A stretch of 64,000 nt of DNA, from contig OX637409.1 of NCBI GenBank assembly GCA_951799425.1, forward strand, positions 12,806,960-12,870,959. Direction: 5' to 3'. How positions within the stretch are numbered: position 1 is the first letter of the stretch; each line of letters begins with the position of its first letter. This stretch comes from Ilex aquifolium (taxonomy: Eukaryota > Streptophyta > Magnoliopsida > Aquifoliales > Aquifoliaceae). The position numbers were made by a program, and so were the translations under genes. Shown here piece after piece: positions 65 through 62,370 of this stretch. Below the pieces are notes generated by a model. It did no database searches. It was not told the DNA's origin and worked only from the letters and a program-made list of their open reading frames with translations.

Positions 65-2739
65 TGTGATGCCCCAAAATCTGGTGGTCCTTTCTCACCT
101 GTTAATCACCCATCAACCCGCATAAATACATGTGTATGTCGTATAACCCGACACCACGTCATCACATCCCTTTCACTGGGGTCGTTACCAACACAAAGTT
201 TAGGCACGGTCTCCCTTGTACTAGAGCACTCACAAATGTATAACATGTGTACATATCAATCACTTGACCATTCCAAGGTCCAATTTCCATCAATTTAAAC
301 TTAATATTGAACCAATTACACCATTTAAATAAGAAAGCTCAAGGCCCGAATGTTTGGCAAGTTATATTTAAATTTTTTTAAAAGTTTGAAAAATGTATCG
401 GCACCTCTTACATGTGGTACCGGTACCTGAGTCTTCTGTCAGCCAGGTACCGGTACTTTTGTAACAAGATACCGGTACCTGGACCTTTATTTTTTCAGGT
501 TCCTTCCATTTGCCAAGTATCGATACCTAGGTGACGGGGTACTGGTACCTGAGTCCACTGTTTGCTAAGTACAAGTAACTACATGTCGTAGTACCGGTAC
601 CTGAGCCCATACCGGTACCTTAGCCCACTGGAATCCAGGTACAGGCACCCGTATGTTGAGGTACCAGGACCTGGCCCATCCAACAGCGTGGTACCGGTAC
701 TTAATCACTTAGGTACCAGTACCTAGGCCTAGATTTTCCTCAATTCTTTCCAATCTTCAACATTTAACCATCCAACCTCTTTCCAAACACATCCATACAT
801 TCATTAATACAAATTATAGTCTATAAGAGTCTATTTCAAACTCTTTACACAATTTACAAGTTCAAAATGAATTACACAATTTATTTACAAAATGTAATTC
901 AAAGTCACATCTCGGCTTCTTCGTCAATAAAGGCCCACGTGAGGACTGTCCACCGGCGCTTGTCTCACACCTGAAATGTTGTTCCTATAAAGGATAAACC
1001 ACGCTCAATATGGTATCTCCTAAAGAGGTTATTCCTCAACTTAGATGCATATGAAATATTCATATGTAATACAATAATCAAACATTCATTCAAGAATATA
1101 CAATTCAATAATGAACGTCACAATGTCATACCATGTTATGAGGTAAGACTCACACAAGCAATGCAACCCGAGCTTTCCACCGGCTCTAATAACATATGCA
1201 ATATCATGCGTATACATTCGGGCATTCCAAGCCTCCGCCATTGATGTTGAACATCCAATGACCAATTTACAAAAATCTTGGGTCTTTCTTGGGGTGAGTA
1301 TTTATGGACTTCACCTAATCGACACGACATCTATGTACTTCCAACAATAGCTCCGCGTACGCCGACACACTTTATGGACTCAATACCAATAAAGTGCGTA
1401 TCCAAAATTATCGGGTCTTGCACCCGAGGTAGAATCTAACCCTTCTTGCTGACCCCAACTCTTGCTTTCAATGCAACTCGTGCAACTCAATCGAACCTAG
1501 GTCCAACTTTCCTGATCCCACGTATCAACCCACCAAGAATGGTGTTTGATTAAATCGTGCACACACATCCACACTCATGTTACATGCCCACGAATGCGAT
1601 GTTTCTCATGCATATTCAATGTAATGTACAATTGTAATTTTCATAGCATGTTCAATATGTCATGAGTACATTATGAACAACTTTAATGCCTATCAACATT
1701 TTTCAATTGTCAATTATATAATAAGCATATAATCACAATTCACAATATCACCAAGCATGTTATCTCATTCTCATTCAAATGACATACTTAAATCATTCCT
1801 AGGCATTTTATCAAACATCCAAAGACACATAATTATGTAAACACATAACATGCCCAATTTAACACGTTACTTCATGAAATTACAAACAAGCAATTTCAAC
1901 AAACCCCAATTCATACTAGAATTGATTTTATACATTCTTATACCATTTCTCATACTCTAGTTACACCATGAGTACATTTAGATCAGAGATTTCATCTCTA
2001 ATCATGTTCCCATTTCATATACAACCCCATGTTGAAAATAAACCTAGTTAGAAAAAGGACCCTACCTCTTGAAGCATAATACACGTAGTAGAAACTCCAA
2101 GAAACCCAACTCAAGCCTCAAAGCTTTGTTCCCAACAATCCCATTTTTGATACATTGGCGAAACCCGTGATCTTTGGTACGTACTCGTAGCTCTCATTGT
2201 GTAGAACAATTTTTGTTCTTGGGCCAAAGGAATCCGAAGGACGGATCTCCCTAGATCGCAAGGAGAAACTTGGAGAACCGTTACTTTCTCTCTCTTCTTC
2301 TCTCTCTTTCTATCTGGCTGTGTTTGGTTGAGAAAATGGGGAAGAATCAGATTTTCTTCCCCTTTTAATACCCCTCATTTACTTGGCTCACAACGTGCCA
2401 CACGTGCCTCTTTTGTTTGATCCAATTTAATCACAAATCAATTAAATCTCATCACATGTTTTGAACTAAATTTAAATTATTTCTCATGTTCCACAATTAA
2501 AATCCATTGCATTTATTTTAGTCGCGCGACTCTCGATTGCATCGTAAACCGCAAAAAATCTTACTGTCTTGGAATTCGACGAAAATCGACTAGGTAACTA
2601 GATTTCACGAGACGAATCCAATGGTGAGATCCATTTTGTTATCCAAGTTTTAGAAAATTTTGGGTTTTTAACTCGTATTGTACGACTAATTACTATTTTG
2701 CCCTTCACAATAAAAGTTTAAATTTTCCCGGATTTTATA
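65..2739 (+). mobile_element. Solo LTR, family D, copy D1
   Basis: The copy starts TGTGATGCCCC and ends CCCGGATTTTATA, both decayed forms of the family D ends (TGTGACGCCCC and CGGGTTTTACA) seen at 36206, 48656, 54556 and, reversed, 53785-60291. It is flanked by an exact 5-bp duplication GAGTA (60-64 and 2740-2744), so this is a complete solo LTR with no internal region. Length is 2675 bp, close to its relatives (2343-2501 bp). No PBS or coding region adjoins it. Family D is probably Ty3/gypsy by its 5-bp duplication and TG...CA ends, but nothing in the window fixes the lineage. Confidence 0.88.
415..725 (+). repeat. GGTACCGGTACC palindrome cluster in LTR D1
   Basis: About eleven copies, several degenerate, of a 12-bp palindrome GGTACCGGTACC (core ACCGGT) occur 15-70 bp apart, each usually followed by TGAG or TAG. 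They lie roughly 350-660 bp from the LTR start. The same place in D2 (36507-36530) and D5 (59878-60020) also holds ACCGGT palindromes. Confidence 0.85.
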
Positions 2740-2744
2740 GAGTA

Positions 2745-3570
2745 AGCTCAAGGTGTGGTGTGTGTGAGATAGCTATTTGTCCCTCAAGTGTAGAGGGCTT
2801 ACAATTTATAGGCGTTGAGCCCTAGTTGAGGCGGTGACGTGAGGGTCAAGGTACTAGTTTATCGGAGATAATAGCTGTAATTGGGGATGAGAACTATCTT
2901 ATAGTAATAGCTATCCCGATGATTGCTTCCCACATGCATTGATCTTCCTAGGTCTCCTGAACTTTGGATTGGACTGAGGTCATTAGCTAAGTCTGGTCTG
3001 CATTTTGATAGTTTGGACTCAACTCATGAACTGGGCACAGGTCTGGTCTGAATCTGGGCTTGTCAAACTATATTTGATTTTTTGAGATAAACGAACATAG
3101 TGCACCTTATTCCTGCAAAACGAACACAAACAATGTTTGAATTCTGAACTAACCTATATCTCTCTACGAAGTTCGAATTCTGAAATTGAGTGTTCTCATA
3201 AAACTCAACCTCTACTTCCCTATGTGATTCCTCATCCCTATCCGTTTTCCCTATATGTGGAGCATGATCACAAACAATCTAGGTCCAAGAATGTGAATCT
3301 CACAATGCAAGAATATTCACTAGAAGGTGGTTGGGATTGATGGGTGAGGGTTTTGGTAGGCTAGGATCGCAATTTGAGAGGTTTGGAATGCAGAGGGGTC
3401 ATATGCCTTAGCTTTTAAACCCTAATGTGTCAACTTATCGTTGGGCCGATCGAATGGTGTTAGAGTTTTTCAAGCGGTCCTTGAAGCTTTTCTATCAAAA
3501 TGAAAAATCAGCTTCGGCGCTTCCACGAACCATCCCGACCCTTCATAAACTTCTCCATACTATCCTTCAA
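2745..3570. other. Unassigned sequence right of D1
   Basis: This is the target into which D1 inserted. Short open frames here show no recognisable domain. No LTR end, PBS or repeat was found. Confidence 0.4.
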
Positions 3571-6670: not shown

Positions 6671-6982
6671 ACGTTTGAATGCCAATCAACGTTCGAACGT
6701 TACCTTCAATCATCTGAAGACCAGACTGCTGAGACATGGCGTGTTGCAGCCAAGAAGGAAGACCTTGAGGTACTTGAGCACCACGTTCGAACGCCAATAA
6801 ACGTTCGAACGTCCCCTGGAATTATTTGAGGACCATGATGCTGCATGGAGTATGAAAATGAACTTCATAGAAGACCATAGGCCACTTGAGTGGGAAGGTC
6901 AGACCCCATCTGGCGTTCGAACGCCCATCAAGCAAAGACAGAAACAACGTTCGAACGCCAGACAACGTTCGAACGTTGTCTG
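6671..6982 (+). promoter_or_regulatory. ACGTTCGAACGT palindrome cluster upstream of LTR A TATA box
   Basis: Six good copies of (A/G)CGTTCGAACG(T/C) start near 6688, 6783, 6800, 6912, 6946 and 6961, plus a degenerate one at 6671. The last is a perfect 24-bp palindrome (6959-6982), half-site CAGACAACGTTC. The cluster ends about 90 bp before TATAAATA, where U3 enhancer elements would lie. Confidence 0.88.
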
Positions 6983-9381: not shown

Positions 9382-11168
9382 TGTAAACCCCCACATATAA
9401 TAGAACTTATACCAACTATGTTGATATACAAATGTATGTTGTATAAGTTTGGGTTGGTTTTGGAAGGGTTTGGAATGGATTGGAAATGAAAAACAGGTGA
9501 AAAAGCCAAATCCGGACAAACCGTACAAGTACAGTGTACCGGTACCCCGATGTCTCGAGAGCAAACCATACCGGTACAGTGTACCGGTACTGTCGGTAAA
9601 AATGAAAAATTTTAAACAGTAAAATTCAGGATTGGGCTGAGTTTAAAACACATTTTCATTCTATTTTCTTCTATTCTTTCACTCCACTCTCACCCCAAAC
9701 CTCTTAGAACCCTAGGGGAAGATCAAAGGAAGAAGAAAAGGGAGAAAAAAAGTCTCTAGAGCTTGAGTTTTGCTTGGAACTTTTGATTTAAGGTAGGGTT
9801 TTCTTCTTATTCTCTTACATTGAGGCTAGAGCTTATATATATGTATTCTTTTGACTCTAAATCCTATATGTATGCTATGAAATCCTTGATTCTTGATATT
9901 CTTGTAAATATTACCATGTTTTAAACAATGCTATGGTGGAATAGCTACTTTTCTTGACTTAAAACCCTAGTTTTCAAGAGAAATAGATTTTTCTCTTGAT
10001 TTTTCCTTTGTCCTTGATTTCAAAACTTTAGTGTTTTGTATTGAACAACAAAATGGTATTGTTGATGATCTCTTGCATATTTTTCTTGAAATTGCTCCGT
10101 TAGAAGAACACCTATGGAATTGGGGGTTTTTTATTTACTTGGGAATTTGAGAAATTTTTGGGGATTGTATCTCTTATGGATGTTTGGATGACCATGGGTG
10201 GCCGTTGACCAGGTATCGTAGAGTAGGTAGATGCGTTTCTTACTCCGTGCAGGTTTGAATTTTTCCTACCACTCGTAGTGGGGTTGGTGCCTTGTGAGGA
10301 CCAAACCACTATTCGCTCACGGGTACCGAGGCTGAGGGTTAGTATACTATTCCTGAGTTGGATTCGTCACTGCCAATGTGTTGGTATACGCCCTTCCTAA
10401 AGTTGTATATCCTTGAGAGGATTGGGTGTGTGTGTGTGTGGGTCAGGATATTCTCGATGTGTTTATTCATGCGATATCATACATCATACCTAAGATACAA
10501 AGTGTGAGCAATTGTATATTGTGGTATACAAATACAAGTTGTGGTTTGAAATACATTGTGAGCTATGGTTTCTTGTGCCAATGGTTGGCTATGGTTTATA
10601 TTGATTTGTTGGAATTGTTCGTTTTGGAAATTGGTTTTACTTCCTCATTTATTTCATTGATATTGCTTAAACTTGAGATCAGATAAACTGTCACTGTTTT
10701 ATTTCAAAAGTTATATATGATATTTGTGAAATGAGACCGATTTGTTTTATATGTTTCCTAAACCTTGTTCGAGTTTGGGAGGATTTTCCTACAGAGCTTA
10801 GTGCTCACCCCCTACAAACAATATTCATCTTCAGGTGTTGGTTTAGAAGAGGAGCTGGGAGTTGATGAGCAGGTGCTCTGGGAAGCTCAAGGGGATAGGC
10901 ATGTGGATCCGGAAGGGGATGTCTAGAATTATTTCCTTTTGTTCTAGACTAGGAGATTTATTTTGAAATAGTGCTCAAGTTAATATTTTCTGTATTCCGC
11001 TGCGAGATAATATTTTTGGCATATTCTTTTGGATGTAATGGCCATGGTTTGGTCTATTCTTTTGGATGATGAATGAAAGTTTCTTGTTTATGAAATTTAT
11101 TAGTTGCTCTCATGATGTGAATGGTTTTAGATAGTGATGCCGTCCAAGGGATGTTTTGGGGTGTTACA
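9382..11168 (+). repeat. F1 5' LTR (family F)
   Basis: 1787 bp, from TGTAAACCCCCACAT, the same head as the LTR at 61816, to GGGGTGTTACA. Shared family F landmarks include ACAGAGCTTAGTGCTCACCCC near 10793. Bases of roughly 9391-9640 do not match other family F LTRs. They match, in reverse complement orientation, the start region of LTR family D (compare 59745-60060). Confidence 0.85.
9531..9590 (+). promoter_or_regulatory. GTACCGGTAC palindromes in F1 LTR
   Basis: Three copies of GTACCGGTAC (core ACCGGT), each with CAGT or ACTG on one side. The flanks (TTTGGAATGGATTGGAAATG upstream) are homologous to the plus strand left of the D5 cassette at 59820-59880. Confidence 0.8.
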
Positions 11169-11412: not shown

Positions 11413-12912
11413 TGATGAGTGGGTTTTATACCTATGAATTGAGTACTTTCGGCTTGATGAAAGTGCAAGTTTTCAATTATTTTATGTTTACTTTTAATTG
11501 TTTTGTGTGTTTTGATGTTATTTTGTAGGAATCATTATTTGGAATCAAACAAGATCATTTGGAAGGAAACAAGGATTTGGAGGCTTAAAAGTGAAAGAAA
11601 TCAAGGAGGTATTGGTGTTTGGTAACAAAGGCACCAGAACTAGCACCATCTGGTGGAAGTACCTCGGTTTTCTGCCATTTTGACCATGATCCACTCAGAA
11701 TCTGGAAAATTTCAAAACATGAAAGTTGTAGATTTTGATGTCTTCTGTATTGTGTCAAAATTTCAGCTCAATCCAACGGTTGGATCAACAGTTATGGCAA
11801 TTTTACGAAAACTGGTCCAGAGCTAAAGGCTTAAAAAAAGGGCCAGCGCTGTTCCAGCTCTGTTTCAGCGCCCCAGCGCCCATTCACTGCCTTCCCAGCA
11901 CTGTCCCAGCGCCCCAGCGCGCCCCCACGGAAGTTGGACGCGATTTCTGACTTGTTTGACCCGAAATTGGACTCTAATGCCTCTTATGTGCTAGGGTTTG
12001 AGGGGAATATAAATATAATGACTTTGGGGGCTGAAAAGGAAGAGAAGAAGACCAAGGATTGATAGAAAATTGAAGGCAAGAATCAAAGGAACCGACAAGA
12101 AGAAAATCGAACTTGAAGCTTGCAACTAAATTTTCATTCTTTTCCCTTACTTTTACTTCTTAATTTTCTAAGATGTTGTTTAATTTGAGAATGATGTTTT
12201 TCAATTACATTATGAACTAAATCGTTATTAATATTGCAACGGAACCTAATGTCTAGTTAAATTAATCTACTCTCGTTTCTAGTTTTTGTTGATCTTATAT
12301 GAGTTGTTTGTCATATTTTGTGTTTAATATATAATTGTTTGGCCAACAATTAATTTGATAACTTAGATGAAATTGGAAGATGAATTCTAGGTTTAGATCT
12401 GAATATGATGACATGCGTCTGGTTAATTCTTCTTAGGATTGAGTTGCTGAGTTTGTGTATAGGATATGAATATACCTGTATGTAGTGTGTAACTTTTATG
12501 AGAGTTTGAACTTAATGAATCTATTCCAACTTATTTTGCATAGGAATATAACAATATAATTGGGATATATATGCTTATCTTACTATCAGAAGAGGTTTGA
12601 TAAATAATTTTGAAGTCTCAGTTAACAACTTATTTTGATCAATTAACTGGAAAGATAGTAGGGAGATTTATACGAAGCATTAGGGGAAGTTGTAATCTTA
12701 ACTTCTTCTATCCGTTAAATTCAATATTTGATTATTAAATTTAGGTTTATTCTTAAATTAGTAAATTCATAGTTGATTGCAATTGTTTAAATAAAATTGA
12801 ATTGATATAAAGTTAGTACTTGAAAGTTATTAGCAATAATTCTCCGTGGGAACGATACTCTACTTATCACTTTATTACTTGTTGATCATGTATACTTGCA
12901 CGTTAATTGTCA
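11413..12912 (+). mobile_element. LTR E1 (family E-like) inserted in F1 gag
   Basis: Starts TGATGAGTGGG. The first ~450 bp align with E2 (27875 on) and E3 (31113, reverse), including the block around AGTTGTAGATTTTGATGTC and TCCAACGGTTGGA. The distal part differs from E2/E3, so it is a related subfamily. The right end (TGTCA at 12908-12912) is set only by where F1 gag resumes. No clear target duplication was found (left ACCAC, right ATACC). Confidence 0.65.
11841..11930 (+). repeat. CCAGCGC repeat cluster in LTR E1
   Basis: At the position where E2 and E3 carry ACCGGT palindromes, E1 has about six CAGCGC(C) words, one of them the palindrome CAGCGCTG at 11844-11851. GC content is far above the surrounding LTR. 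Confidence 0.7.
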
Positions 12913-18018: not shown

Positions 18019-18131
18019 TTTGTGTATTTTTATTTGTAGGTCTCGGCAGATGAACAGATCTATACCATTCAACCTCATCTCCAAGATCCATATACTAGTA
18101 AATTCGAAACATTGGGGACAATGTTCAGTTT

Positions 18132-18145: not shown

Positions 18146-18407
18146 AACTATAGTTCATATTTTGTGCTCGTAAATTTTTTTGTTTTTGTTGTTGTTGTTG
18201 CTATTTCTGATCATATTGTGTATCGTGCCTCGTGTTTTTTATAAATTGATTATCATGTCTGTGAGTCAGTTCCAATCGTCTTTGTGACTGACAGATGTTA
18301 AAGAACCAGATAGTGAGTCTTAAAGTTTAGAAAGTATGGATGTTAAACTTTTTTGGTTTAGTCTGGGAGTTCTACGCACTTTTCCATCTGGTGTGCATAT
18401 TGTGATC

Positions 18408-18746
18408 ATGAGAAAAACAAGACTGGTAAGGAAAACCGAAATCCGAGAAGAACAAGTGAAACCCCTCTGTGGCAGAAGCACTTTTGCTAAATGCCGACGT
18501 GACAAAAGGCTTGGTGCTTGTAAACAGTGTGGCAGAGTCTTTCACAAGAAAAGATATAATTAGTGTTCTGAACCAATTTCCAGCCGTGCACTCGATCGAT
18601 TAGACTGGATAGTGAATGGACTGAGTAAGGATTACCTTGAGACGCCATCCTATTCCGGTACTTTGCTTAACCGGTTTGTGCGACAGGAAATTAGAAGAGT
18701 CATTGATAGTTCGAATGACACAGAGATAGTGGACGACTCGGATTAG
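18408..18746 (+). pseudogene. Small basic Cys-rich protein, zinc-finger type
   Basis: The frame from the ATG at 18408 (an in-frame ATG at 18336 is also possible) gives a 51-codon basic peptide. A TAG at 18561 follows, then another 60 open codons in the same frame to TAG at 18744. The first part has spaced cysteines, CGRSTFAKC then GACKQCGRVFH. A further Cys follows the internal stop, giving C-x2-C-x4-H-x5-C if that stop is a mutation. The Arg-rich stretch before C-x2-C recalls the small nucleic-acid-binding proteins of carlaviruses (Pfam Carla_C4). That is a pattern judgement only. The second half is acidic (SSNDTEIVDDSD). It lies between pol and ORF3. Confidence 0.45.
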
Positions 18747-19018
18747 ACTGCTTTCTAAAAAAACTGTGGAAAAATGTGTTTTGGGGATGAAAGCCAAAGG
18801 TCCAAATTTTTGTAAAAAGTGTAAAAAAAAAACTTCTTGTACAAACTCTTTTGACTGAAATGAAAATATGGGTCGAGTAAGGAATTTCCAAAAATACCAA
18901 CATAAAGCGTGGGTAGGGACTTATCCTGAGACGCCATGAATTTTTGATTCAACCTTTTGTGTATAAACCTCTTTGATTGTGAATATTAATGTACATAGAA
19001 ATTTTTAATTTTTGCTTT

Positions 19019-19203
19019 GACGTTCGAACGCCAAGTGACATTCGAACGTCAAGTGACATTCGAACGTCACCTGCTTGCAGTACTCAGCCTCTGATGAAGT
19101 CTTTGATGGGAACAAAAAGTACTGGAAGTTCAGCCCGTTCGAACGCCAATAGACCGTTCGAATAAGAGTTAACATTTGAACACCAATAGTACGTTCGAAC
19201 GAG
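19019..19203 (+). promoter_or_regulatory. TTCGAA palindromes upstream of ORF3 of A (left part)
   Basis: Copies of (A)CGTTCGAACG or ACATTCGAACGTC occur at about 19019, 19037, 19054, 19136, 19154 and 19191, with paired CAGTACT and AAAAGTACTG words between and after them. The cluster was split by F2 and resumes at 21594. It is the same motif as in this element's own LTR. Confidence 0.8.
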
Positions 19204-19263
19204 AAGAACTTACAGTACTTTGGTCTCTAACAGAACTCAAAAGTACTGTGAGCTCACCACATT

Positions 19264-21593
19264 TGTAACACCCCGCATTTTCTTTTAAATATATGTATAT
19301 AGATATATAGTAAATAATTGTTGTAAAAATGTGGATATGTGTAATGATGTAAGAATAAACTATATAGATTGTAATAGTAGGAGAAATGCTAGAGATGCAT
19401 ATGGATTGGGAAGTTGGAGTTTCCAAGATGTTTAAACTTGGAAAAGGTGATTAGATGAATTTCTAAATATTTTTAGGTCAAAATAAGGTGTCCATTGAAT
19501 CCGGAAGTTCAAAAAACTTTGGGAGAGGTAATATGAGGTGTATTGGAAGTTAGGAAGTATTCCGGAGTGAAAACACACTTAGAGAAAATTTGGGTAAAAA
19601 TGAGTTGGGACACCTTCTAGTAGTTTGGTCATAACTTTTTATCTTTATATCCAATTGATCTTAAATTTGTACAGTAGATAGTAGACATCTAGGGCTACAA
19701 AAGTGTGTTTGACGAAAATTTTCCAAATCGGCTTCTAAATAGGTCAAAATTGATCTGGAAGTTGCGGGTATACTGTCACCCGCGTCCGGACGGGAATAGA
19801 CACGCGTCCGGACGCGTATGGCAGAAACTTGGACGCAAAAACACGCGTCCGGACAGCACAAAAACACGCGTCCGGACGCGCCAACCCGAGGGCTTCACGA
19901 CTCAGACTTGTTTTGGGTGTTCTCTCTCCCATTTGCAAGCCATTTCATCAAATCTAACTATTGAGAGGCTTAGAGGGGAAGAAGGAAGGGAAAAACAAGA
20001 GATTGAGGTGGTGATTCAAGTTGGGAAATGATCAATTCTTCTAGTTCTTCACACAAAAATTAAGAAGCAAGGTAGGGGGTTCTTCTCAAATTCTTTCATT
20101 GAGGCTTAGGGTATTATATATGTACGTTTTGCCTATAAATGTGACATATATGAAATGAAATCATCCTCTCTTAGTCTTTTTGTAAAGATTACATGATTTG
20201 AACAAATTAAGGGTGAATACCCATGAAATCTCTTTGCTTGCTTTCAAACCCTAGTTTTGGAGAGTGATGAATTTTCTTCTAAAAGTCTTTTTTATTCTTG
20301 ATTTCAAAATCATAGTGTTTTGTGTTGAGTAATAAAATGATATTGTTGTGATCTCTTGCATTTCTCTTGGTTGGTTATTGAAAATGTCACATGCTTAATT
20401 TGGGGATTTTGAGATATGCTTGTAAAATGAGAAATTGTGGATTTTGTAGTTATTTGGAATTGTTGGTGAATTGAGAATATTTTGGTTTCCTCATTTGTAT
20501 GGTTGTTGTGATGGACTTGGATTGCCTTCGAGAGATACCGTAGAGTGTTAGATGTTAGTCTACCCCAGTGGGGGGAGATGGTTTCCTAACACTTGTAGTG
20601 GGTTGTCATGTGGTAATGCGACAACTATCGTTCACTAGAGTTCGAACAAGGGATGTTATACTTTTCCTGGGAAGGGACTCGTCACTGCCATTAGGATGGT
20701 AGATGCCCTTTTCTAAAGTGTTTGTGACTGTGATGGAGATTGGTGGACTAGGTATAATCGTTGGGTAGATTCATGAGAAGCAATCAACATACATGGTACG
20801 GAGATGAACCAATGTACATGGGATGATGGGTTGGGTTGTTTGGGCCGGTGCATTGGTATGGGACAATGTATCGGAAAGCGCCCTTCCTAAATGGCTTAAA
20901 GTTGGAAATGGTTATTGTTCATTCTACCATAGACGGTTTCTACAAGAGTCTTGGGGAAGTATGGGATTCCGCGAGAACTTGTGGAAACAATGTATGGTGG
21001 ATTGGATTATATTCGGATATGGTTTGTTAACTGTATAGTGGTTCCACTTAATCATTCAATTACTGTTGTTCCTTAAACTTGAGATCTATTTAAATGTCCT
21101 GGTTTTACTTCAAATATTATATATGCTAATTGTGAAATGAGACCTACCGTTTTATATACTTTTCTAAACCTTGTTTGGGTTTGGGAGGATTTTTCTACAG
21201 AGCTTCGTGCTCACCCCCTACAATTGAACATTTTTCAGATTTGGTGCCAGATGAGGAGCTCGGTGCTAATGAGCCGGGCTATGGAGAGGCTTCGCTAGAG
21301 GAATACTTGGATCCTGAGTGGGACATCTAGAGATGTAGCTTACTTTTGTTCTAGACTAGGATATTCATTTTGAACCTTGTGAAGTCTAGTTTTCTTTTGT
21401 TATTTCCGATGCGCTACATTAGTTGATTTTTGAAATGTAAAGGCCAAAGATGGAATATTCTTTTGGAATAATGATGTAAGTGTTATGAATGATTCTTATG
21501 AAGTCTTATTTATGAAGGGTTTATTTTAGTGCTCTCATGATATGAATGGTTTTAGAATGTAATGTCGTCCAGGGTGTGTTTTGGGGTGTTACA
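19264..21593 (+). mobile_element. Solo LTR F2 (family F) inside the ORF3 upstream region of A
   Basis: 2330 bp, TGTAACACCCCGCATTTTC to TTGGGGTGTTACA, with exact duplication ACATT (19259-19263, 21594-21598). No PBS or internal region adjoins it, so it is a solo LTR. Open frames inside (e.g. 20823-21038) are not conserved and are not genes. Confidence 0.93.
19780..19880 (+). promoter_or_regulatory. GCGTCCGGACGC palindrome cluster in F2
   Basis: Four copies of CGCGTCCGGACGCG or a close variant (~19780, 19801, 19842, 19866), about 520-615 bp from the LTR start. Homologous in position and sequence to 42173-42275 and 46236-46338. Confidence 0.85.
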
Positions 21594-21693
21594 ACATTCG
21601 AACAGCTTTAACATTCGAACGTTCTTTTTAAAATTCTACTACATACATTCGAATGTCTTTAACGTTCGAATGTCATTTCTCAGGCTATAAAAG
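21594..21693 (+). promoter_or_regulatory. ORF3 promoter of A: TTCGAA sites and TATA box
   Basis: Continuation of the palindrome cluster (ACATTCGAAC, ACATTCGAACGTT, ACATTCGAATGT, ACGTTCGAATGT), then TATAAAAG at 21686-21693 flanked by a 6-bp inverted repeat CAGGCT/AGCCTG. A C- and A-rich leader follows, and the ORF3 ATG lies about 220 bp downstream. This layout suggests an internal promoter for ORF3. Confidence 0.65.
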
Positions 21694-21906: not shown

Positions 21907-23025
21907 ATGCCTCCAAGAGTCAAACTGCTTGCTAGGCGCAGCCCAATAAACCAGGAGCCCAATATGGTGGAGGAAATCATCGAAGTGAGAGAGGGGAGGC
22001 CACCCATTACGCGAAGATATGACAAGACCTGATTCCCCACGGCTCTAAAAGCTGAAAGGTACGATAATTTCTACCAAAACCACGCTGTTGTTTGTGAGCG
22101 GGACGTGGTATTGAATGATTTTGTTGAGTTGGGTATATTGGCAGATATGGAGATGAGAGGTTGGGTATTATATTTGTGAAACGGCGGAGAGGCCGTAATT
22201 AACTTGGTGTGGGAGTTTTACTCCAACGCCGAAATAATCAATGGGGCGCTGAAGAGTTATGTAACGGGAACTCATGTTGATGTTGATGAAGACTACATAA
22301 GGGAGTTGAGGCAAGAAGTGCCTCGGGTGTAAAACCCGACATACCCTTCGAGAAAGAAGGTGGCCATGAACACTGTTGGGGCAGAATTAACGGGAGTGCC
22401 TAAATTTTCTTAGCCAGGGAAGAGATTTTTTAGACAAGGGGAGCTCATTGACAAAAACAAAATGTTAAATTTGATTGCAGTGTCAAATTTTGCTCCGATA
22501 GGAAGAAAAAATGAAATCCTCCCCGACATGGCCCGGTTGCTTTACGCACTTGGGAAGGGCCAAAGCATTGACCTCCCCCCCCTAATTTTGACAAAAATGA
22601 AGAAGGGTTGTGATGTGAAGTGAAACTCGCTCCCGTTTGGCACCCTAGTTACGGAGATATGCAAAGACCATGGGATCAGGGTGAGGCCTGAGATGAGAAT
22701 CCAAAAGCCAATGAGGCCACTGAACAAGGCCTCCTTCAGGAGGAGCCAAGGTCATAGTGGCGGCCCGGCAGCAAGACATGAGGTGCCCCCTACCCCAGGA
22801 GTTGATGAGGTGCAAGAGGAGATTGATGAGGAGGAGGAGGAGAGAGAGCTAGAGACTGAGAGAGCCCAGGAGCAGCCACAGGAGGCAGGACCCAGCTCCA
22901 GCACCCAGAGATCACTGAGAGATATCATGTTTGGCATTGAGACCAAGCAAGCTGAGATTCTCCGACAGTAGGAGGAGATTCTCGGCTACCTGAGAGGTGG
23001 AGCTGGTAGATCTGGAGGAGAGTGA
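21907..23025 (+). pseudogene. ORF3 of A ('putative plant transposon protein' type), frame preserved
   Basis: 373 codons from the ATG at 21907 to TGA at 23023-23025 with no frameshift but about six internal stops, each explicable as a single C-to-T or G-to-A change. Conserved blocks shared with ORF3 of C include a VV..(E/R)DV-(I/V)-(F/L) stretch, F..LGI.(...)RGW, EFYSN, and a G-(E/D)L-x-D-x-x-x-x-LNLI-x-(V/I)-SN region followed by ARLLY..G.G..IDL. The C-terminus is very acidic (a Glu run near 22825-22865) then probably coiled coil. Pfam holds such sequences as a putative plant transposon protein domain of unknown function. No transmembrane segment is visible, so an envelope role is unlikely. 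Confidence 0.72.
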
Positions 23026-24589: not shown

Positions 24590-24736
24590 TTGTTGGTTCT
24601 TCTATTACTGTATTCATTGACCATGCAGCCCTAAAATTCTTGCTCAAAAAGAAGGATGCCAAGCCAAGTCTCTTAAGATGGATACTCTTGCTCCAAGAGT
24701 TTGATCTGATCATTAAAGACAAAAAGGGTGTTGAGA
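24590..24736 (+). pseudogene. Displaced RNase H fragment joined to 3' LTR of A
   Basis: 147 bp matching 16125-16266 ([12 protein letters not shown] and [19 protein letters not shown]). Unlike the main copy it lacks the extra A, so its frame stays open through the equivalent of the frameshift. At 24736/24737 it joins directly to LTR sequence equivalent to 6945. Confidence 0.85.
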
Positions 24737-40542: not shown

Positions 40543-41556
40543 CTACAGACTTAGTAGTATCTCCTTATTAGTCCTTTCATCCATTGGTGGCTGCTCCTGT
40601 CTGTCAAATTCATGTTCCTCCTCCACATTTACACCTACTCCTTTATATGTTGGCTGGGCTTCTGGTGGTCCTCCTTGTATTCCATTGCTCTTTTTCAGAG
40701 AAGTGACATCCAGGTGTGCCAGCTCCTCGACAAGTGTCCAGGTAAGATCTATGATGACTCTCTTGCTTTTACAAATGTTAGTCACCAAAATACCAAAAGG
40801 AAGCGAGGGTTTCTTGTTTTGGATTGCCAAAGTCATCTAGTCCATTATTAAAATTTAAAAATCTATAAAATGACCCACACCAAAAGAGTAAAGCAATCTA
40901 GCCCTTTTAGTGTAAATCTGATTTTTTTGGGCTTCAGGCATTAGATTAGAAATAGTAATCAAGTTCAAGATCCGATAACTATCCGTCAAATCCCCTTGCC
41001 TAATGCATTTTCCTCTCCTACCCCATACAAAGTTTGGGTCATTGGTGAATTCTCTCTCAATTATGGTCAAGTCAAGAGGGGGGTTAGTTGGGTAATCGGC
41101 ATTTGGTTATCTCCTTATAGGTTTAATTTGATCGATAATGGTACCCACACCTACTTGGAACCTTATTCCCCTAACATATGTCTCAAACATATTAGAACCA
41201 ATCATATCGACATTGCTATAAAATTCCTGAACAATGCATTGATAGCCAACACCCAAGGTTCTCATATAGTTTGTCCATCCTCTTGCTTCTAAATTTTGCC
41301 TAATACCTAAATGTTCAAAATCCTCAAAAATAACATCCTGTTCATTTACAACAATTTTACATTCAAAATAACGTTCATACCATAATTGTTGATCAACATT
41401 TTAAAAAACATTAGGTTCAATTTTAGAAGGGACATGTGGATTAGGCACTTGCTCACTCGGAATTTGTTGCCTCGTAGCTCCTTGCGATGGTGGAGATGCC
41501 TCCCTTCGAGATCTACTTGTGCTAGCTTGAACATTGGTCTTCTTCTTGGGACCCAT
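40543..41556 (-). pseudogene. ORF3 of element C ('putative plant transposon protein' type)
   Basis: From the ATG at 41556-41554 (MGPKKKTNVQASTSRSRR, a basic N-terminus). Stops follow after PSKIEPNVF, after IKPIRR and after GHFIDF, plus one frame change before PSLPFGILV. Shared with ORF3 of A: FEHLGIR..LEARGW, QEFYSN, YVRGI, QGDLTDSYRILNLITISN, ARLLYSFGVGHFIDF. The C-terminus is acidic. Both ORF3s lie between pol and the 3' noncoding region, and both have their own TATA box. Function unknown. Nuclear or DNA-binding activity is a guess from the basic N-terminus. Confidence 0.7.
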
Positions 41557-41614: not shown

Positions 41615-42766
41615 TGTAACGCCCCAAATACCACCCTGGACGGCATTACTATCCAAGACCATTCACAACATGAGAGAACGACTAAATAAATTCCATAAAT
41701 AAAGAATGTCAAGCTTAGAATTCAAAACAAAGGGGCAATCATGTGTTGAAATCAATAGCAAAGGAGAAGTCAAGAGACAAACACATTTCCCTTGAAGACT
41801 AGGGTTTGGTAGCAAGCAAGGAGATTCAAGGGTTACCCAACAATCACAATATTTTCCACATGGCATCAATTGCAAGAATAGCAAGAATTAAGGATTTGAT
41901 AGCATACATATAACATTTAGAGTGAAGAGATACATATAAATAAACCTAGCCTCAATGTAAAAGAATGGAAGAAAACCCCTACTTTGCTCCTTAATTTTTG
42001 TGTGAAGAACTAGAAGATTTGATCCTTCCCACTTGAATCAACCCTTGAATTTCTTGTTTTCCCCTTCTTTCCTTCCTCTCTAAGCCTCTCTATGGTTTGC
42101 ATTGATGGAAATAGGTTGCAAATGGGAGAGAAAACGCCCAAATCAAGTCTGAGTCGTGAAGCCCTCGGTTTGGCACGTCCGGACGCGTGTTTTGTACTGT
42201 CCGGACGCGTGTTTTTGCGTCCAAGTTTCTGCCATACGCGTCCGGACGCGTGTCTATTCCCGTCCGGACGCGGGTGACAGTATACTCTCAATTTCCAGAT
42301 CATTTTTGACCTATTTAGAAGCCGATTCAGAAACTTTTCGTCAAATACACTTTTGTAGCCCTAGATGTCTACTATATACTGTCCAAATTTCAGATCAATT
42401 GGATATAAGGATAGAAATTTATGATCAAAATACTAGAAGGTGTCCCAACTCTTTTTTACCCAAATTTTCTCTAAGTGTGTTTTTACTCCGGAATACTTCC
42501 TAGCTTCCAATACACTCCACATTACCTCTCCCAATGTTTTTCGACCTTCCAGATTCAATGGAGAACTTATTTTGACCTAACAATATTTAGAAACTTCCAT
42601 AATCTCTCTTCTCAAGTTTACGCACCTTCGAAACTTAACTTCTCAATCAATTTGTATCACTAGTTTTTGCTTTTATTCCTACCGTCACTACACATATCCA
42701 CATTTTTACAACAATTATTTACTCTAAATCTATATACATATATAAAAGAAAATGCGGGGTGTTACA
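41615..42766 (-). repeat. 3' LTR of the LARD (family F)
   Basis: 1152 bp. On the minus strand it runs from TGTAACACCCCGCATTTTC at 42766 to GGGGCGTTACA at 41615. It is shorter than F2 (2330 bp) because most of the distal half is missing. Confidence 0.93.
42173..42275 (-). promoter_or_regulatory. GCGTCCGGACGC palindrome cluster, LARD 3' LTR
   Basis: Four sites. The one at 42236-42251 is a perfect 16-bp palindrome, half-site ACGCGTCC. They lie about 490-595 bp from the LTR start. Confidence 0.88.
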
Positions 42767-45664: not shown

Positions 45665-46829
45665 TGTAACGCCCCAAATACCACCCTGGACGGCATTACT
45701 ATCCAAGACCATTCACAACATGAGAGAACGACTAAATAAATTCCATAAATAAAGAATATCAAGTATTGAATATCAAGCTTAGAATTCAAAACAAAGGGGC
45801 AATCATGTGTTGAAATCAATAGCAAAGGAGAAGTCAAGAGACAAACACATTTCCCTTGAAGACTAGGGTTTGGTAGCAAGCAAGGAGATTCAAGGGTTAC
45901 CCAACAATCACAATATTTTCCACATGGCATCAATTGCAAGAATAGCAAGAATTAAGGATTTGATAGCATACATATAACATTTAGAGTGAAGAGATACATA
46001 TAAATAAACCTAGCCTCAATGTAAAAGAATGGAAGAAAACCCCTACTTTGCTCCTTAATTTTTGTGTGAAGAACTAGAAGATTTGATCCTTCCCACTTGA
46101 ATCAACCCTTGAATTTCTTGTTTTCCCCTTCTTTCCTTCTCTCTAAGCCTCTCTATGGTTTGCATTGATGGAAATAGGTTGCAAATGGGAGAGAAAACGC
46201 CCAAATCAAGTCTGAGTCGTGAAGCCCTCGGTTTGGCACGTCCGGACGCGTGTTTTGTACTGTCCGGACGCGTGTTTTTGCGTCCAAGTTTCTGCCATAC
46301 GCGTCCGGACGCGTGTCTATTCCCGTCCGGACGCTGGTGACAGTATACTCTCAATTTCCAGATCATTTTTGACCTATTTAGAAGCCGATTCAGAAACTTT
46401 TCGTCAAATACACTTTTGTAGCCCTAGATGTCTACTATATACTGTCCAAATTTCAGATCAATTGGATATAAGGATAGAAATTTATGATCAAAATACTAGA
46501 AGGTGTCCCAACTCTTTTTTACCCAAATTTTCTCTAAGTGTGTTTTTACTCCGGAATACTTCCTAGCTTCCAATACACTCCACATTACCTCTCCCAATGT
46601 TTTTCGACCTTCCAGATTCAATGGAGAACTTATTTTGACCTAACAATATTTAGAAACTTCCATAATCTCTCTTCTCAAGTTTACGCACCTTCGAAACTTA
46701 ACTTCTCAATCAATTTGTATCACTAGTTTTTGCTTTTATTCCTACCGTCACTACACATATCCACATTTTTACAACAATTATTTACTCTAAATCTATATAC
46801 ATATATAAAAGAAAATGCGGGGTGTTACA
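45665..46829 (-). repeat. 5' LTR of the LARD (family F)
   Basis: 1165 bp, identical in layout to the 3' LTR apart from a 14-bp insertion near 45757-45770, a 1-bp deletion near 46139 and two substitutions seen by eye. Confidence 0.93.
46236..46338 (-). promoter_or_regulatory. GCGTCCGGACGC palindrome cluster, LARD 5' LTR
   Basis: Same four sites as at 42173-42275. One outer arm has changed (GACGCGGG to GACGCTGG). Confidence 0.85.
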
Positions 46830-46992: not shown

Positions 46993-47043
46993 CTTTTATA
47001 ATCGTCCCTGGCATCCGGATGATGCAGGGGGCGTCCGGACGCT
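46993..47043 (-). promoter_or_regulatory. ORF3 promoter of C: TCCGGA palindrome and TATA box
   Basis: Minus-strand TATAAAAG at 47000-46993. The palindrome GCGTCCGGACGC (47031-47042) lies 31 bp upstream of it, with a degenerate copy GCATCCGGATG between them. Without the LARD the ORF3 ATG is about 220 bp downstream, as in element A. The palindrome is the one found in this element's own LTR. Confidence 0.7.
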
Positions 47044-51349: not shown

Positions 51350-51650
51350 TTTATAGAGAAGGATGGGCGGCAAGGGGTGGCTAGGAGAGCCAATGATTCG
51401 GAGCTTCAAGTGTTAACACTACTTTCCGTTTTTGGCAGGGGCGTCCAGACACTAGTGGTAGGCATCCGGACCCTAGCAATTCTTTGGTTTACATAGACTG
51501 CTAGATTTGATTTTAGGAAGAGGCATTTGGACAGTGGTGGCTGGCGTCCGGACGCTGGTCTTTGTTAGCCGCTTTTTCTTTCGGCCTTCTATCATAGAAT
51601 CTTGAGGCGGTTATGGCATCCGGACTGTGCAGGCAGGCATTCAGACGCCT
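51350..51650 (-). promoter_or_regulatory. TCCGGA palindrome cluster and TATA box of LTR C
   Basis: A perfect GCGTCCGGACGC at 51544-51555 and four degenerate relatives (~51440, 51471, 51616, 51637). The minus-strand TATAAATA at 51357-51350 lies about 80 bp downstream of the nearest. The arrangement is that of LTR A, but with a different core. Confidence 0.78.
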
Positions 51651-57066: not shown

Positions 57067-59877
57067 CCGACTTTTCTTCACCCAATTTCTACATCCATTG
57101 CAAATCCTTTCTTACAAGATTTATTTAGCACATTTAGGCACCCTTTTCCCACACTTAACATACACTAATGGTGCATTAAACAAGAGAATTTATCTCAAGT
57201 CATGACACCCATTCTACACCCACTTACTCAAGGCATAAAATAACAATTGCTATTTAATCCCAATTCACAACTCACATGTTATATATAGCTCATGCTAATA
57301 ACAAATCAATTTTCAAGGGATTTCACAAGTGATTCCGACATATCACATACAACTAAAAATTGACCTAAGTCATTTCTACACCCTTTCTCTTTTTCATTTC
57401 ATCAACCCAAGTTAGGGATTGATTATAAACCATTCCTCATAGGCAATGAACAAGATATACCCATAGCAACAATTCGTGTTTTTATCACATCAACTTGCTC
57501 ACACGTCACAAGGCACATTAGAATATATCTCATGCCCTCAAAACATCAAGTTCCAAGAATATCACATAAGTAATTTCTTATGTCAATCTTTGCTAAGAAT
57601 TGGTCTAGCCTCAAATTCCATACCCATTTCAACTCTTCTCATGCATAGGTGAGTGATACATACCTATTTCACATGCAAAGGTGAGTGATACATATATATA
57701 CTCTTTAATAACCTACACATTTCACATACACTATAGGTAGGAAATGAACCAAGGTAGGAAAATCCCTACCTCTTGTAGCGTGAGAATCCCGTAGGAAGCT
57801 CCCAAGACCCGAAAACCCAACTCGAAGCTTGATTTCCCAACTCCCGAAATTTCACCTTCGGTGAAATTCGTTGTTTTTGGTACCCACGCGTAGCCTTCGT
57901 CGACGTGATCACTTCTCCCTTCTAGCTCGACGGAATCCGAGCAACAAAATACAACTCGAATCTTGATCTTCGTATGCCCTCATCCGTTCACCTTCGGTGA
58001 AACTTGTGGTTTTTGGTACCCACGCGTAGCCCTCGTCGCGTAGATGAACTTTGCCTTTTGAATCGACGAATTCCGACGGACGGAACTCCCGGAATCGGAG
58101 CGGGAAGCTTGGAGATCAAATTTTTTTTCCTCTCTCCCTTCAACGTCTGAACACAGCCAGCTAAAAGGGGTGGAATATCTGATTTTTCAGATATTTAGCC
58201 CCTATTTATACTTTTAATTGCGCGGTCCACATTGCACCGCTTATTTTCGACTTTCGGGTCCGTTTTTCGTCCCGAAACGATTCATTAAGTCCCGGATTAA
58301 GTCCAAATTAATTTTATTGGAACTTTAATCAAATTATAAGGAAATTTTATAAAATCCATTATTGGAGACCTTTAAAATTACATTCGCCACGCAGTCGCCT
58401 CGAACGACGTGCAAAAATTTGACTATCTCGGAATTCGACGAAATTTCTAGTGATTACTAGATTTCGCGTTGCGAATCCAATGACGCACTCCGTTTCCTCA
58501 TCCGAGGTCTAGAACATGATTATTTCAAATACGCATAAGGGTGGAGAATTACCATTTTGCCCTTTTTCAGAAGAAGTTCAATTTTTTTCCCGGGTTTTAC
58601 AGATAGACCTTCATATATAGGGTTATGGGTATAGAAACGGAAAAGTGAGCCTAGAAATGGTTTAAACTAAATTCTAGTTCGAATTTGGTATATGAAGTAC
58701 ATGTGATTTATTACGTAACTTGGGGAAATTTGAGGCATGATTATGTGATTTATATATTGTGCCTAGAAGGTGTTTGATTAAATGCCTTGTTTGAATGGAA
58801 TGATTGTTTTGATCTAATTGAAATAACATGTTTAAGTTCAACTTGTGGAATCATATGCTTATGATGTGATTGTAATTAAAAGTGCTTGTTGATATATGCA
58901 TAGGTTGATATATTAACATCGGAATGAATATGGTATTTATATGCTTAGGACATAAATTTACCATGGATATGTTGAAATTGTGCATGGGTTGTTCTTGACA
59001 TAATGAACCTCATGTGGTATGCAATGGGACATAGCATTGCATGTGCACGGAAGCATCTCATTACATGGGTGTGTGCATGGTTGATGTCAACACCACACTT
59101 GGTGGTTGATGGTATGGCTTGGGAAAAGTTGGGTCGAAGACCTAGCTAAGCCGCTTGATTGCATGATAAATATGGGTCGGGATGAGCAAGAAGAGGCATG
59201 ACAACCTCTCGGGTGCAAGGCCCGGTGAATTGGGGGGTGCACTCCATTGGTATAAGAGTCCATAAAGTGTACGGGTGTGGAAGACCCTTGGTATGAGTCC
59301 ATGAAATGTCCGATCCCAAGAAAGACCCTAGTTTTTGGAAAATATCATTTGATGTAAACATAAATGATGAAATGAAACACTTTGGCATTGCATCGTGTAG
59401 TAGGAGTCGGTGAGGACTCGGGTTGAATTGCATGAGTGAGCGTCATCTCATTTCATGGCATGGTAGTATTGCATTTCAACTTAGAATGCATGTCCTTATG
59501 AGAAATGATTGTTTGCAAATGAATGTTGCATGAGCATGAGCATCTAGGGGGAGAATAGCCCTTGTAGGATTTACTCTACTGGGCGTTGGCTAACCCTATA
59601 TGGGAAACATTTCAGGTGTGGGGTTTGCACCGGCGGATGACTCACTTGGAGAGCATCAAGCATGAAGGGGGCCGGCTTGTGGCCTTAGTTTGAGTTTTTG
59701 TAAAACTTTTATCAAAATTCCATTTTGACGTGTAAATTATGGAATTAATTGTAATGGAACTTGTATAAGTTATGTATTATATGGAAAATCTCATTAAACA
59801 TGTGTTGGATGAGTTTTGGGAGGTTTGGAATGGATTGAAAACGAGAAATGGTTGAAAAAGGCAATATTGGGCAGACA

Positions 59878-60020
59878 GTACCGGTACTGTGTACCGGTAC
59901 GGTATGGTACCGGTACGCCATTTCCAGTAGGTTAACTGTACCGGTATTGTGTACCGGTACGGTAGGGTACCGGTACTGTGTATCGGTACGATATGGTACC
60001 GGTACACTGTACCGGTACAC
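59878..60020 (-). promoter_or_regulatory. GTACCGGTAC palindrome cluster in D5
   Basis: About nine copies of (T)GTACCGGTAC(A) separated by 8-20 bp, 270-415 bp from the LTR start. Two of them are degenerate (TACCGGTATT, TATCGGTACG). Confidence 0.87.
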
Positions 60021-60291: not shown

Positions 60292-61815
60292 CACTCCCAG
60301 TTCATATAAGGCTATATTGATGGAAAAGAGAAGATTGAATGCTTTGTCATTTTGTCTAACAAAAAATTGAGTGTTTGTTTAATGCTACAATAAATTTCTC
60401 TTCTCTCAAGTATGCTTCTCTCCTAGATAACATCTCATTCACATATGACAATATAACACATACAACATAGTAGAAAAGTTAAAATGGCAGCAACATTGAA
60501 TGTGTGAATGGCTATATTTGCTGAGTGCCTATATTTTTTCAAGTTTATTTTCCATTTGTTTAGGAGGAAACTAGGGAAAACATAATGCAAAGAGTGAATG
60601 GTTCAATCTTGACCATAAAAAATCTAGCGAGTATAATCAAGTTCTATCAAGTTTGTTCATGGCCCAAACCACTACGTAATATACCTAAAACCATTCATTG
60701 CAATATCTTTTTTCATTTTTTTATTACTGCTTCATTGTGATCTAATTTGAGTGGACTCAAAAAATTTTGGTTTCAATTCTTAGAAGCTCAGGGTAGGAAA
60801 ACAATTACCAAAGCAGTTGCAGCTAAATGACACAAGTTGAATAAGACCATTGAGTAAGTTTTGATACTTTTGAGATTCCTAATCTTGCTGTCGTTGGCAT
60901 TTTTCGGCCAAATCACCACCACAAAGTTTCATACATTTCAATGCAATGGAAAGAATGCAAATAATTCATTCAGTAGAGACTTTGTTTTTAAGCTTGTCAT
61001 TGATGTGTTGGGACTTAAGAATAGCTGATTGTGACTGAGTGTGAGCACCATCAAAGAGTACTTGCTAAGATCTTACTTCACCACATGTTGTATATTAACC
61101 CAATTGCTTGTTTTATGTTGATTTCGTTATATCTTTGAGTATATTTTTGGGTGCTGCGGACATGCTCTAATTTGGTTTAAATTGTTTTTGGCTTGAGTTG
61201 GAATCGAACTCAATGGGTCTAGGGCATGAATTTCTAAGACTTTGATTCTACAAATCAGTTTTAATTCTTTATGCAATATTTTCTTTTCTCTCTCTATGTT
61301 ACTGTGTTGTTGTCTTTGGTTAATGAAGATAATTCAATTTGTTATGACATTGTTCTGCGTGGGGGAATTCGATATAGTTTTATTGATAATTTCTTTTAAG
61401 AGCTTGTCATTTAAAATTAAGGTTGTTTGAGCATGCTTTTTTTTGTTATACTCTGCATTTATTTTTCATTGATTGAAGACTTGGTATATCTTTTAAACAT
61501 AGGACTACAATTGTTCTTCCTAATCTTAGTTTTAAATTATCGATCCTAAACTCAAGTATACTTTGATTAATTTCATGTCCATAAATTTGTTACATTGTTG
61601 TTTAATTTATTGACAACGTAATGAAACATCCAATTCTAATTACATTAAATATTAAAGACATAAAATGTCTATTAAAATTGAGTTGAATGTGACTCTTCCG
61701 AATCTTAAAATTTTCATTTTTGACTATAAACTCAATATTATCCATTATTTTAATTTTGTGAGTTTATTTGAGATATCTACATTTTTTTCACCTTTTATTT
61801 ATGTGCTTGATAATT
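60292..61815. other. Unassigned AT-rich sequence, possibly intronic
   Basis: Continues the sequence left of D5. T-rich with no recognised exon, LTR end or repeat. It ends at the family F LTR start at 61816. Confidence 0.4.
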
Positions 61816-62198
61816 TGTAAACCCCCACATTCTTATCGTTATATATAGTAACGTAATTATGTTTTTGAAATGCTAATATATATGCAATGATGTATGCATG
61901 AACTATGTAGATTGTAAGAGTAGAAATCAAAATGTTAGTTGAGGTAATAGGGTATGTTGTAGAATTTTGGAAGTATTCCGGAGTGAAATCACACGTTAGA
62001 GAGGATTTGGGTAAAAAGGATTTTGGACACTGCCTTAGTAATTTCACCATAAATTTTTATCCTGATGTCCATTTGATCTGAAATTTTTACATGAGATAAT
62101 AGACTTCCAGGTCTACAAAATAGTATTTCACGAAAATTTTCCAAATCAATTTCTAAATAGGCTAAAACTTCACTGTAAGTTTCAGAAAAAATAGGAAT

Positions 62199-62370
62199 TC
62201 CGTTCGAACGTGAATTGACGTTCGAACGTGAATTGACGTTCGAACGTGAATCGACGTTCGAACGTGAATAAAAGTTCGAACGAAAGTTCGTTCCAGTACT
62301 CTTTGTCTGATTGAAAAACAAAAGTACTGGGAGCAAGTGACGTTCGAACGCCAATGACGTTCGAACGTGA
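62199..62370 (+). promoter_or_regulatory. GACGTTCGAACGTG palindrome array in F3
   Basis: Seven TTCGAA palindromes. Four lie in an 18-bp tandem register (62200-62264), one is degenerate at 62273, and two lie at 62339 and 62357. They end about 50 bp before TATAAATA. The CAGTACT..AAAAGTACTGG words between them also occur in the ORF3 upstream region of element A (19074-19250). Confidence 0.87.

Follow-up and report, generated by a model that had tools for sequence, protein, structure and literature searches.

Why do retrotransposons of several families, nested in one stretch of plant DNA, carry arrays of CpG-centred palindromes in their long terminal repeats (LTRs), and why do copies of one family carry arrays of different types? 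These questions are raised by a 64-kb window of Ilex aquifolium DNA (contig OX637409.1 of assembly GCA_951799425.1, positions 12,806,960 to 12,870,959), which is the whole stretch analysed and the source of all our sequence evidence on the cassettes, their exchange and the elements that carry them. Self-comparison, sequence reading and target-site duplications identify the window as nested plant retrotransposon DNA, with elements A, B and C, LTR families D, E and F, and a large retrotransposon derivative (LARD). Our preferred answer, which we hold with moderate confidence, is that the arrays would be exchangeable, promoter-proximal cassettes of binding sites, and that in elements A and C they would also drive a second promoter, that of a 3' open reading frame (ORF3).

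The palindromes themselves are strongly and selectively enriched. Palindromes were counted by centre dinucleotide and set against 100 versions of the window shuffled in blocks of 2 kb. Those centred on CG and at least 10 bp long number 55, against a shuffle mean of 6.9 and a maximum of 16; the words named in a preliminary description of this DNA sit where it placed them. The excess is also seen at lengths of at least 12 bp (26; mean 1.7, maximum 6), 8 bp (84; mean 25.5, maximum 39) and 6 bp (166; mean 92.3, maximum 112). GC-, AT- and TA-centred palindromes of at least 10 bp (17, 33 and 27, against means of 11.1, 30.0 and 23.9) fall inside their shuffle ranges, as do those of at least 8 bp, and at 6 bp or more the GC-centred (191 against a maximum of 175) and TA-centred (389 against a maximum of 361) classes also exceed the shuffles. 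In the five cassettes tested, the observed-to-expected CpG ratio is 0.62-2.61, compared with 0.21-0.49 for the remainder of the same LTRs.

Three palindrome types account for most of the cassettes discussed below (TTCGAA, TCCGGA and ACCGGT), and their sites are centred on CCGG or TCGA without an everted CGG...CCG core. TTCGAA and TCCGGA cannot be treated as unrelated words, because both reduce to CGTYCGRACG and a single symmetric transition separates them. Gaps between sites scoring at least 8 of 10 recur across families, and we count this recurrence towards a binding-site reading: 17-19 bp in 13 of 20 gaps for TTCGAA (A LTR 3/6; A internal 5/8, within its two parts; F3 5/6), 20-23 bp in 6 of 10 for TCCGGA (F2 2/3, LARD 2/3, C LTR 1/3, C internal 1/1), and 13 bp in 7 of 12 for ACCGGT (F1 2/3, D2 1/1, D5 4/8), with 16 bp in a further 3 of 8 gaps in D5. 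Moreover, the 24-bp palindromes of two A-type LTR copies (6959-6982 and 24751-24774) differ by a mirrored pair of changes, which indicates that the dyad has been retained. Tandem growth is evident in the F3 cassette, with an 18-bp unit.

Symmetric repeats of this kind could instead act in RNA, as a hairpin, dimerisation or packaging module formed by pairing of adjacent palindromes. Indeed, against 60 shuffles each, 14 of 16 folded stretches reach z-scores between about -2.3 and -10.6, and studies cited in the available text of PMC10760457 tie maize Sirevirus palindromes to structure and small RNAs. This stability is not independent evidence, however, because repeated palindromes necessarily pair. 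The module is also a weaker proposal because two of the stretches, D2 (z -1.65) and the internal cassette of C (z -0.34), fold no better than shuffles, and the non-palindromic E1 folds slightly beyond them (z -2.27). Furthermore, each single copy is a palindrome by itself, a symmetry not required for a hairpin formed by two copies, and the sites also precede an internal TATA box in two elements. We therefore regard an RNA module as very unlikely.

The position of the cassettes points instead towards promoters. With TATAAAWR as the search pattern, a TATA box lies 55-109 bp downstream in five of the 12 LTR cassettes examined (A, C, D5, E1 and F3), the distance from the last core being 97 bp in the A LTR, 109 in the C LTR, 74 in D5, 87 in E1 and 55 in F3; it is again 97 bp in a second A-type fragment. 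The interval of 50-90 bp given in the preliminary description was thus roughly right, and the fixed LTR position that it proposed holds at best relative to TATA, in these five.

A second copy of the arrangement, which the preliminary description had overlooked, lies within elements A and C. The palindrome type of the LTR (TTCGAA in A, TCCGGA in C) recurs 15 bp (A) and 13 bp (C) upstream of the TATA box that precedes the 3' ORF. Exact cores are of the matching type throughout, with 6 TTCGAA and 0 TCCGGA in the A LTR, 10 and 0 in the A internal cassette, 3 TCCGGA and 0 TTCGAA in the C LTR, and 2 and 0 in the C internal cassette; exact cores of the other palindrome types are absent from all four cassettes. 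We read the two clusters at 19018-19194 and 21597-21665 as one internal promoter of element A split by the solo LTR F2, the cluster at 19018-19260 having been rejected as part of an LTR, and the cluster at 47014/47034 is the element C equivalent. Could the internal cassettes simply be recent copies of those in the LTRs? In the A pair, 233 and 191 of 1000 shuffles that keep the palindromes reach the observed score, so that the spacers are not detectably alike; palindromes shared without shared spacers argue against a recent LTR copy, and we rejected that explanation for A. For the C pair, 87 of 1000 such shuffles reach the score.

Element B offers the complementary case. No PF20167 match, the profile that marks ORF3 in A and C, was found in its eight stop-free pieces after pol, and the stretches that separate pol from the 3' end of the element (745 + 450 bp) contain no ACCGGT-type site; TTCGAA and TCCGGA each have a single stray match there, at 8/10. 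In A, C and B (n = 3), additional boxes thus precede the 3' ORF in those elements that have one. Taken together, a type match without spacer likeness, absence in B and, where a TATA box is seen, a similar distance to it suggest that the palindromes may be the binding sites of one transcription factor.

If the sites are read by a protein, that protein might be encoded by the elements themselves, and such a regulator was a possible function among those offered in the preliminary description. More specifically, ORF3 or the NABP-like zinc-finger protein of A could be a sequence-specific activator or anti-silencing protein that targets the palindromes of the LTR and of its own promoter, in the manner of VANC in VANDAL transposons, with other families borrowing the sites. 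That the LTR and the ORF3 promoter carry sites of one type in A and in C, and that B has no matching ones, would suit this proposal. In addition, VANC target arrays are described as differing by one base between C-type and T-type subfamilies (PMC5735166), much as one symmetric base distinguishes TTCGAA from TCCGGA here; element A encodes a Viral_NABP/Carla_C4-like protein, a class whose member in chrysanthemum virus B is described as a transcription factor in the available text of PMC12172455; and the PF20167 protein of sunflower Athila has a predicted nuclear signal (PMC11728184). Yet DUF1985, a VANC domain, was not found in six ORF3 pieces at E values up to 10, four of the six matching PF20167 instead. 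Apart from the copy in A itself, NABP-like matches in the window reach an E of 0.19 at best, with none in C among the 20 matches listed. Families F, D and E share the sites as well, and a regulator ORF was not encountered in them, no systematic search having been made. On balance, we consider a VANC-like activator unlikely.

A further aspect of these cassettes is that they appear to have moved among families, for which evidence beyond the palindromes provides support. With palindromes masked, 105 pairs were compared, and among the best 30 the strongest besides same-family copies were F1-D5 (p 4e-11) and F1-D2 (p 7e-11). The palindrome-free flank that F1 shares with family D is matched in 0 of 1000 shuffles for both D copies (p 1e-10 for D5, 1e-9 for D2); its first 55 bp by themselves are matched in 22 of 1000, and the 3' side gives 8 and 2 of 1000. 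A second link joins F3 to the internal cassette of A. When palindromes were kept fixed and spacers shuffled (1000 shuffles, 15 tests), the spacers of these two gave 0 of 1000 in both directions (Gumbel p about 1e-3), and clear significance was confined to these two tests. The masked comparison of the same pair gave a p of 1e-3, equal to that of A LTR with C LTR, a value that would fail multiple-test correction by itself. The A LTR and F3 spacers are not significantly alike, 283 and 325 of 1000 shuffles reaching the score. An inverted-repeat composite, CAGTACT...AAAGTACTG, occurs at 19078 and 19213 (A internal) and at 62294 (F3), and nowhere else in the window.

Within family F, the LTRs look mosaic. 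F2 and F3 are 79.0% identical upstream of the cassette, 56.9% identical with 72 gap columns in it, and 44.8% identical over the next 105 columns; since the divergence runs past the cassette, the stretch that would have been replaced exceeds it. Between F2 and LARD, identity is 91.6% in the U3 flank and 61.6% in the leader, and the cassette (95.9%) exceeds the sequence downstream of it (76.6%; Fisher p 3e-7). The exchange envisaged in the preliminary description thus finds its support in the F1/D flank, the F3/A internal spacers and the F mosaic.

Might these cassettes be no more than divergent descendants of one ancestral tandem array, subject to rapid U3 turnover, with neither exchange nor function? 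The small step between TTCGAA and TCCGGA and the tandem duplication in F3 would be expected under such turnover. The abrupt loss of identity in the F2/F3 cassette beside a well-conserved flank would not, nor would the D flank held by F1, the apparent discordance between flank and leader in F2 and LARD, or the restriction of enrichment at 10 bp and above to CG-centred palindromes. Descent without exchange is, in our judgement, highly improbable.

Several observations nevertheless weigh against exchangeable binding-site cassettes. Regarding position, seven of the 12 LTR cassettes (D1, D2, E2, E3, F1, F2 and LARD) have no TATAAAWR match at the expected distance, the fixed position proposed at first not being seen in them, and E1, at the same place, carries a non-palindromic array; it had been described as a CpG-centred palindrome cassette but consists of CAGCGC direct repeats, among which a single 8-bp palindrome occurs. 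Regarding anatomy, the 13-bp spacing of ACCGGT is not present in D1, E2 and E3, and outside the core the arms show weak symmetry (p 0.034 for TTCGAA, 0.49 for TCCGGA and 0.028 for ACCGGT). Regarding the internal promoters, the match between LTR and internal type comes from two elements, with a chance of about 0.04 if types were drawn randomly from the 12 cassettes, and the absence of both ORF3 and sites in B could be a single deletion. Finally, regarding exchange, the F1 cassette is not D-like beyond its palindromes (47 of 1000 shuffles for D5, 148 of 1000 for D2), and the F2-LARD cassette does not differ significantly from its upstream flank (p 0.19). The F1 leader is about equally near those of F2, F3 and LARD (71.1, 71.2 and 73.4%), so that the mosaic argument depends on the F2-LARD contrast, which could come in part from unequal rates.

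We propose, then, that the cassettes are promoter-proximal arrays of dyad-symmetric sites, in which half-sites such as GTTCG, GTCCG and TACCG are joined at a CpG. A nuclear DNA-binding protein, probably a dimer, would bind them and aid the start of RNA polymerase II transcription at the downstream TATA box. In A and C, which are of Athila type, the ORF3 promoter would be under the control of the same type of site, so that genomic RNA and ORF3 mRNA could be activated together. Families may swap the cassette with adjoining U3 sequence by recombination, perhaps most simply by template switching during reverse transcription, and tandem duplication would then multiply it. Among the functions first suggested, a promoter or enhancer role fits the position and the second copy before the 3' ORF best, and the sequence comparisons suggest that the palindrome words may act as a tradable on-switch. 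A nucleosome-placing or insertion-target sequence, as opposed to factor sites, strikes us as scarcely credible: nucleosomes are reportedly held by a 162-bp LTR motif of RLG_Quinta whose structure is that of a cryptic inverted repeat (PMC11302176), and the F2 insertion sits inside a palindrome array, but the three other insertions with duplications (D3, LARD and E3) lie outside palindromes, and dyads of 10-14 bp at recurring spacing would fit protein sites better.

As for the identity of the factor, we think a host-encoded protein likelier because different families share the sites. Known Sirevirus elements lend this view further weight. In these Ty1/copia elements (Bousios 2010, PMC2829016), clustered CpG-rich palindromes lie in the LTR upstream of TATA, as they do in the window where a TATA match is seen (five of 12 cassettes, one of them the non-palindromic E1). 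The logic is also shared in that each element has one palindrome consensus, and extra boxes occur 5' of the 3' ORF (ENV) only when ENV is present; in Table 3 of that survey, boxes lie upstream of ENV in 9 of 9 box-bearing ENV elements, and none lies in the linker of 4 of 4 elements without ENV. By our own comparison, the half-sites GTCCG and TACCG are common to both sets. Their order differs, being inverted and overlapping here (GTCCGGAC, TACCGGTA) and everted in Sirevirus (CGGACcGTCCG, CGGTAsTACCG), although Sirevirus Tnd-1 also lacks the everted CGG...CCG core (PMC2829016). Such overlap with boxes of distant plants would be easier to reconcile with a host factor that is widely conserved than with one encoded by the elements. 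Unlike Sirevirus, element A is by its domains a non-Sirevirus element (PF20167-like 3' ORF; gag, reverse transcriptase and integrase matches), the TTCGAA type has no CCG, several LTRs have fewer copies, and different families in the window share or trade types. It is quite doubtful, by contrast, that an element-encoded 3' protein (ORF3 or the zinc-finger protein of A) reads its own CpG palindrome at the LTR and at its own promoter in Ty3/gypsy elements, with families trading cassettes to share or escape regulators.

Related Ty1/copia elements such as Tnt1 and Retrolyc1 provide a precedent for differing U3 repeat modules, within one family. Papers on such U3 arrays are cited by PMC10760457. Other known systems each share a part of what is seen here. 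VANDAL elements and VANC (PMC5735166) also have motifs arrayed in tandem in non-coding regions, but they are DNA transposons whose VANC carries the DUF1985 that went undetected in the ORF3 pieces. Arabidopsis Athila6A has a second promoter upstream of its 3' (ENV) ORF, like A and C, and the available text describes no palindrome link (PMC4977677). The QuinCent segment of RLG_Quinta, also in the LTR upstream of TATA, has a proposed origin in an unrelated family by copia/gypsy transfer, but it is a single nucleosome-holding motif and not an array of short dyads (PMC11302176). PF20167 has been reported for a sunflower Athila ORF (PMC11728184), and A and C likewise have a 3' ORF with PF20167 after pol, by profile matches of separate ORF pieces that each fall under the 45-bit whole-family cut-off. 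A shared-word search found no homologues of one C ORF3 piece. No report of palindrome boxes in Athila was found in the literature searched, most subscription papers lying outside its reach.

Table 1. Cassettes, putative internal promoters and associated ORFs, in coordinates of the window (TSD, target-site duplication).
Feature	Position	Strand	Remarks
A LTR TTCGAA cassette	6671..6982	+	three pairs, 18-bp spacing; TATA 7071
F1 LTR, D-like flank and ACCGGT cassette	9440..9600	+	
F2 (solo LTR) TCCGGA cassette	19783..19880	+	longest word ACGCGTCCGGACGCGT; gaps 22, 41, 23
LARD 3' LTR TCCGGA cassette	42173..42275	-	
LARD 5' LTR TCCGGA cassette	46236..46338	-	
F3 TTCGAA cassette	62199..62370	+	TATA 62421
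E1 CAGCGC array	11841..11930	+	non-palindromic; TATA 12008
E2 CTACCGGTAG cassette	28328..28406	+	
E3 (solo LTR) GTACCGGTAC cassette	30591..30652	-	TSD GGTAT
D1 ACCGGT cassette	415..730	-	partly decayed; 12 sites scoring 8/10 or better
D2 ACCGGT pair	36508..36532	-	spacing 13
D5 ACCGGT cassette	59875..60019	+	spacings 13 and 16; TATA-like 60091
C LTR TCCGGA cassette	51440..51650	-	TATA 51355
Second A-type LTR fragment	24733..24775	+	cut off within cassette, joined to RNase H fragment
A internal promoter TTCGAA cassette, part 1	19018..19262	+	interrupted by solo LTR F2, TSD ACATT
A internal promoter TTCGAA cassette, part 2	21595..21693	+	TATAAAAG at 21686
C internal-promoter TCCGGA pair	47012..47043	-	47014/47034; TATAAAAG at 47000
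A ORF3, PF20167-like	21907..22968	+	with stops; pieces searched separately, 6.3e-5 and 5.4e-5
C ORF3, PF20167-like	40546..41556	-	broken; cut off from promoter by LARD (TSD TGTCA); pieces 7.3e-4 and 6.3e-7
A extra ORF, carlavirus nucleic-acid-binding zinc-finger-like	18336..18743	+	between pol and internal promoter; one stop

The cassettes (Table 1) lie in elements whose nesting we read as follows. Element A, on the plus strand, has an LTR ending at 8252 and gag at 8445-9384, followed by F1, which holds E1 inside it; then come pol, with Pfam matches from 15207 and a start that we take to be near 14187, the small extra ORF, the internal promoter region (19018-21693) and ORF3. Its domain matches are Retrotrans_gag, RVT_1, rve and Integrase_H2C2, plus PF20167, and its gene order and primer site are presumably those of a Gypsy/Athila element. 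Element C, on the minus strand, has an LTR split by the solo LTR D3 (TSD CAAAT) and a large internal deletion that has left the end of the LTR adjoining that of pol, after which follow the internal promoter (47043-47000), the LARD insertion and ORF3 from 41556. In element B, matches to reverse transcriptase, RNase H and integrase zinc-binding domains follow LTR E2, which contains the solo LTR E3 and is read as the 5' LTR of B. A CATTGGGGACAATGT inverted repeat lies 3' of pol in both ORF3-bearing elements, at 18112 (+) and 47288 (-), and a degenerate version is found in element B at 35706.

Family F, judging from LTR ends and primer site, may belong to the Tekay/Del chromovirus lineage; a gag match at 13272-14183, a single domain match, is assigned to F1, and the F3 leader region (62796-63094) contains a 30-bp tandem repeat in ten copies. 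D3 and D4 carry, as first described, a different, CCGG-containing tandem repeat in place of the ACCGGT cassette. Family D LTRs also have a further TATAAATA at 38157 (-) and 58210 (-), far from the palindrome cassette, and the D promoter is uncertain because the copy at 38157 places a second TATA close to the opposite end of the D2 LTR. An extra E copy (56807-57055) retains the flank, with no cassette in the following ~245 bases. At 24590-24775, an RNase H fragment (96% identical to 16125-16272) joins an A-type LTR inside its palindrome cassette, possibly by a template switch or a deletion. A fragment at 52986-53141 resembles plant N-acetyl-gamma-glutamyl-phosphate reductase (E 0.0024 to PDB chain 1xyg), from a host gene or pseudogene.

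The extra ORF of element A passes the family cut-offs of both Viral_NABP (1.4e-5) and Carla_C4 (1.9e-4), and confidence in the predicted structure of its product is low (mean pLDDT 50.1). On short contigs there are seven relatives, 112-136 residues long, including P0001, which is 79% identical over 136 residues and matches Viral_NABP at 4.1e-11. No paper on such a gene in a retrotransposon was found in the literature searched, and no IMG/VR contig was confirmed to carry the NABP-like protein or the A reverse transcriptase. Likewise, when five window proteins were compared with 25 IMG/VR loci (3 + 22) that have two exact palindromes, no relatives emerged. Two IMG/VR contigs (L018:4200-4420 and L002:380-560) bear dense arrays of GTACCGGTAC or AACGTTCGAACGTT, and these too encode no relative of those five proteins.

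The cassettes of this window would extend the Sirevirus palindrome rule, in which the LTR and the promoter of the 3' ORF carry the same boxes, to non-Sirevirus elements. Because sequence around the sites also crosses family borders, the finding bears on the modular exchange of promoters among retrotransposons. And, should the palindrome-reading protein prove to be encoded by the elements, retrotransposons would have their own counterpart of VANC.

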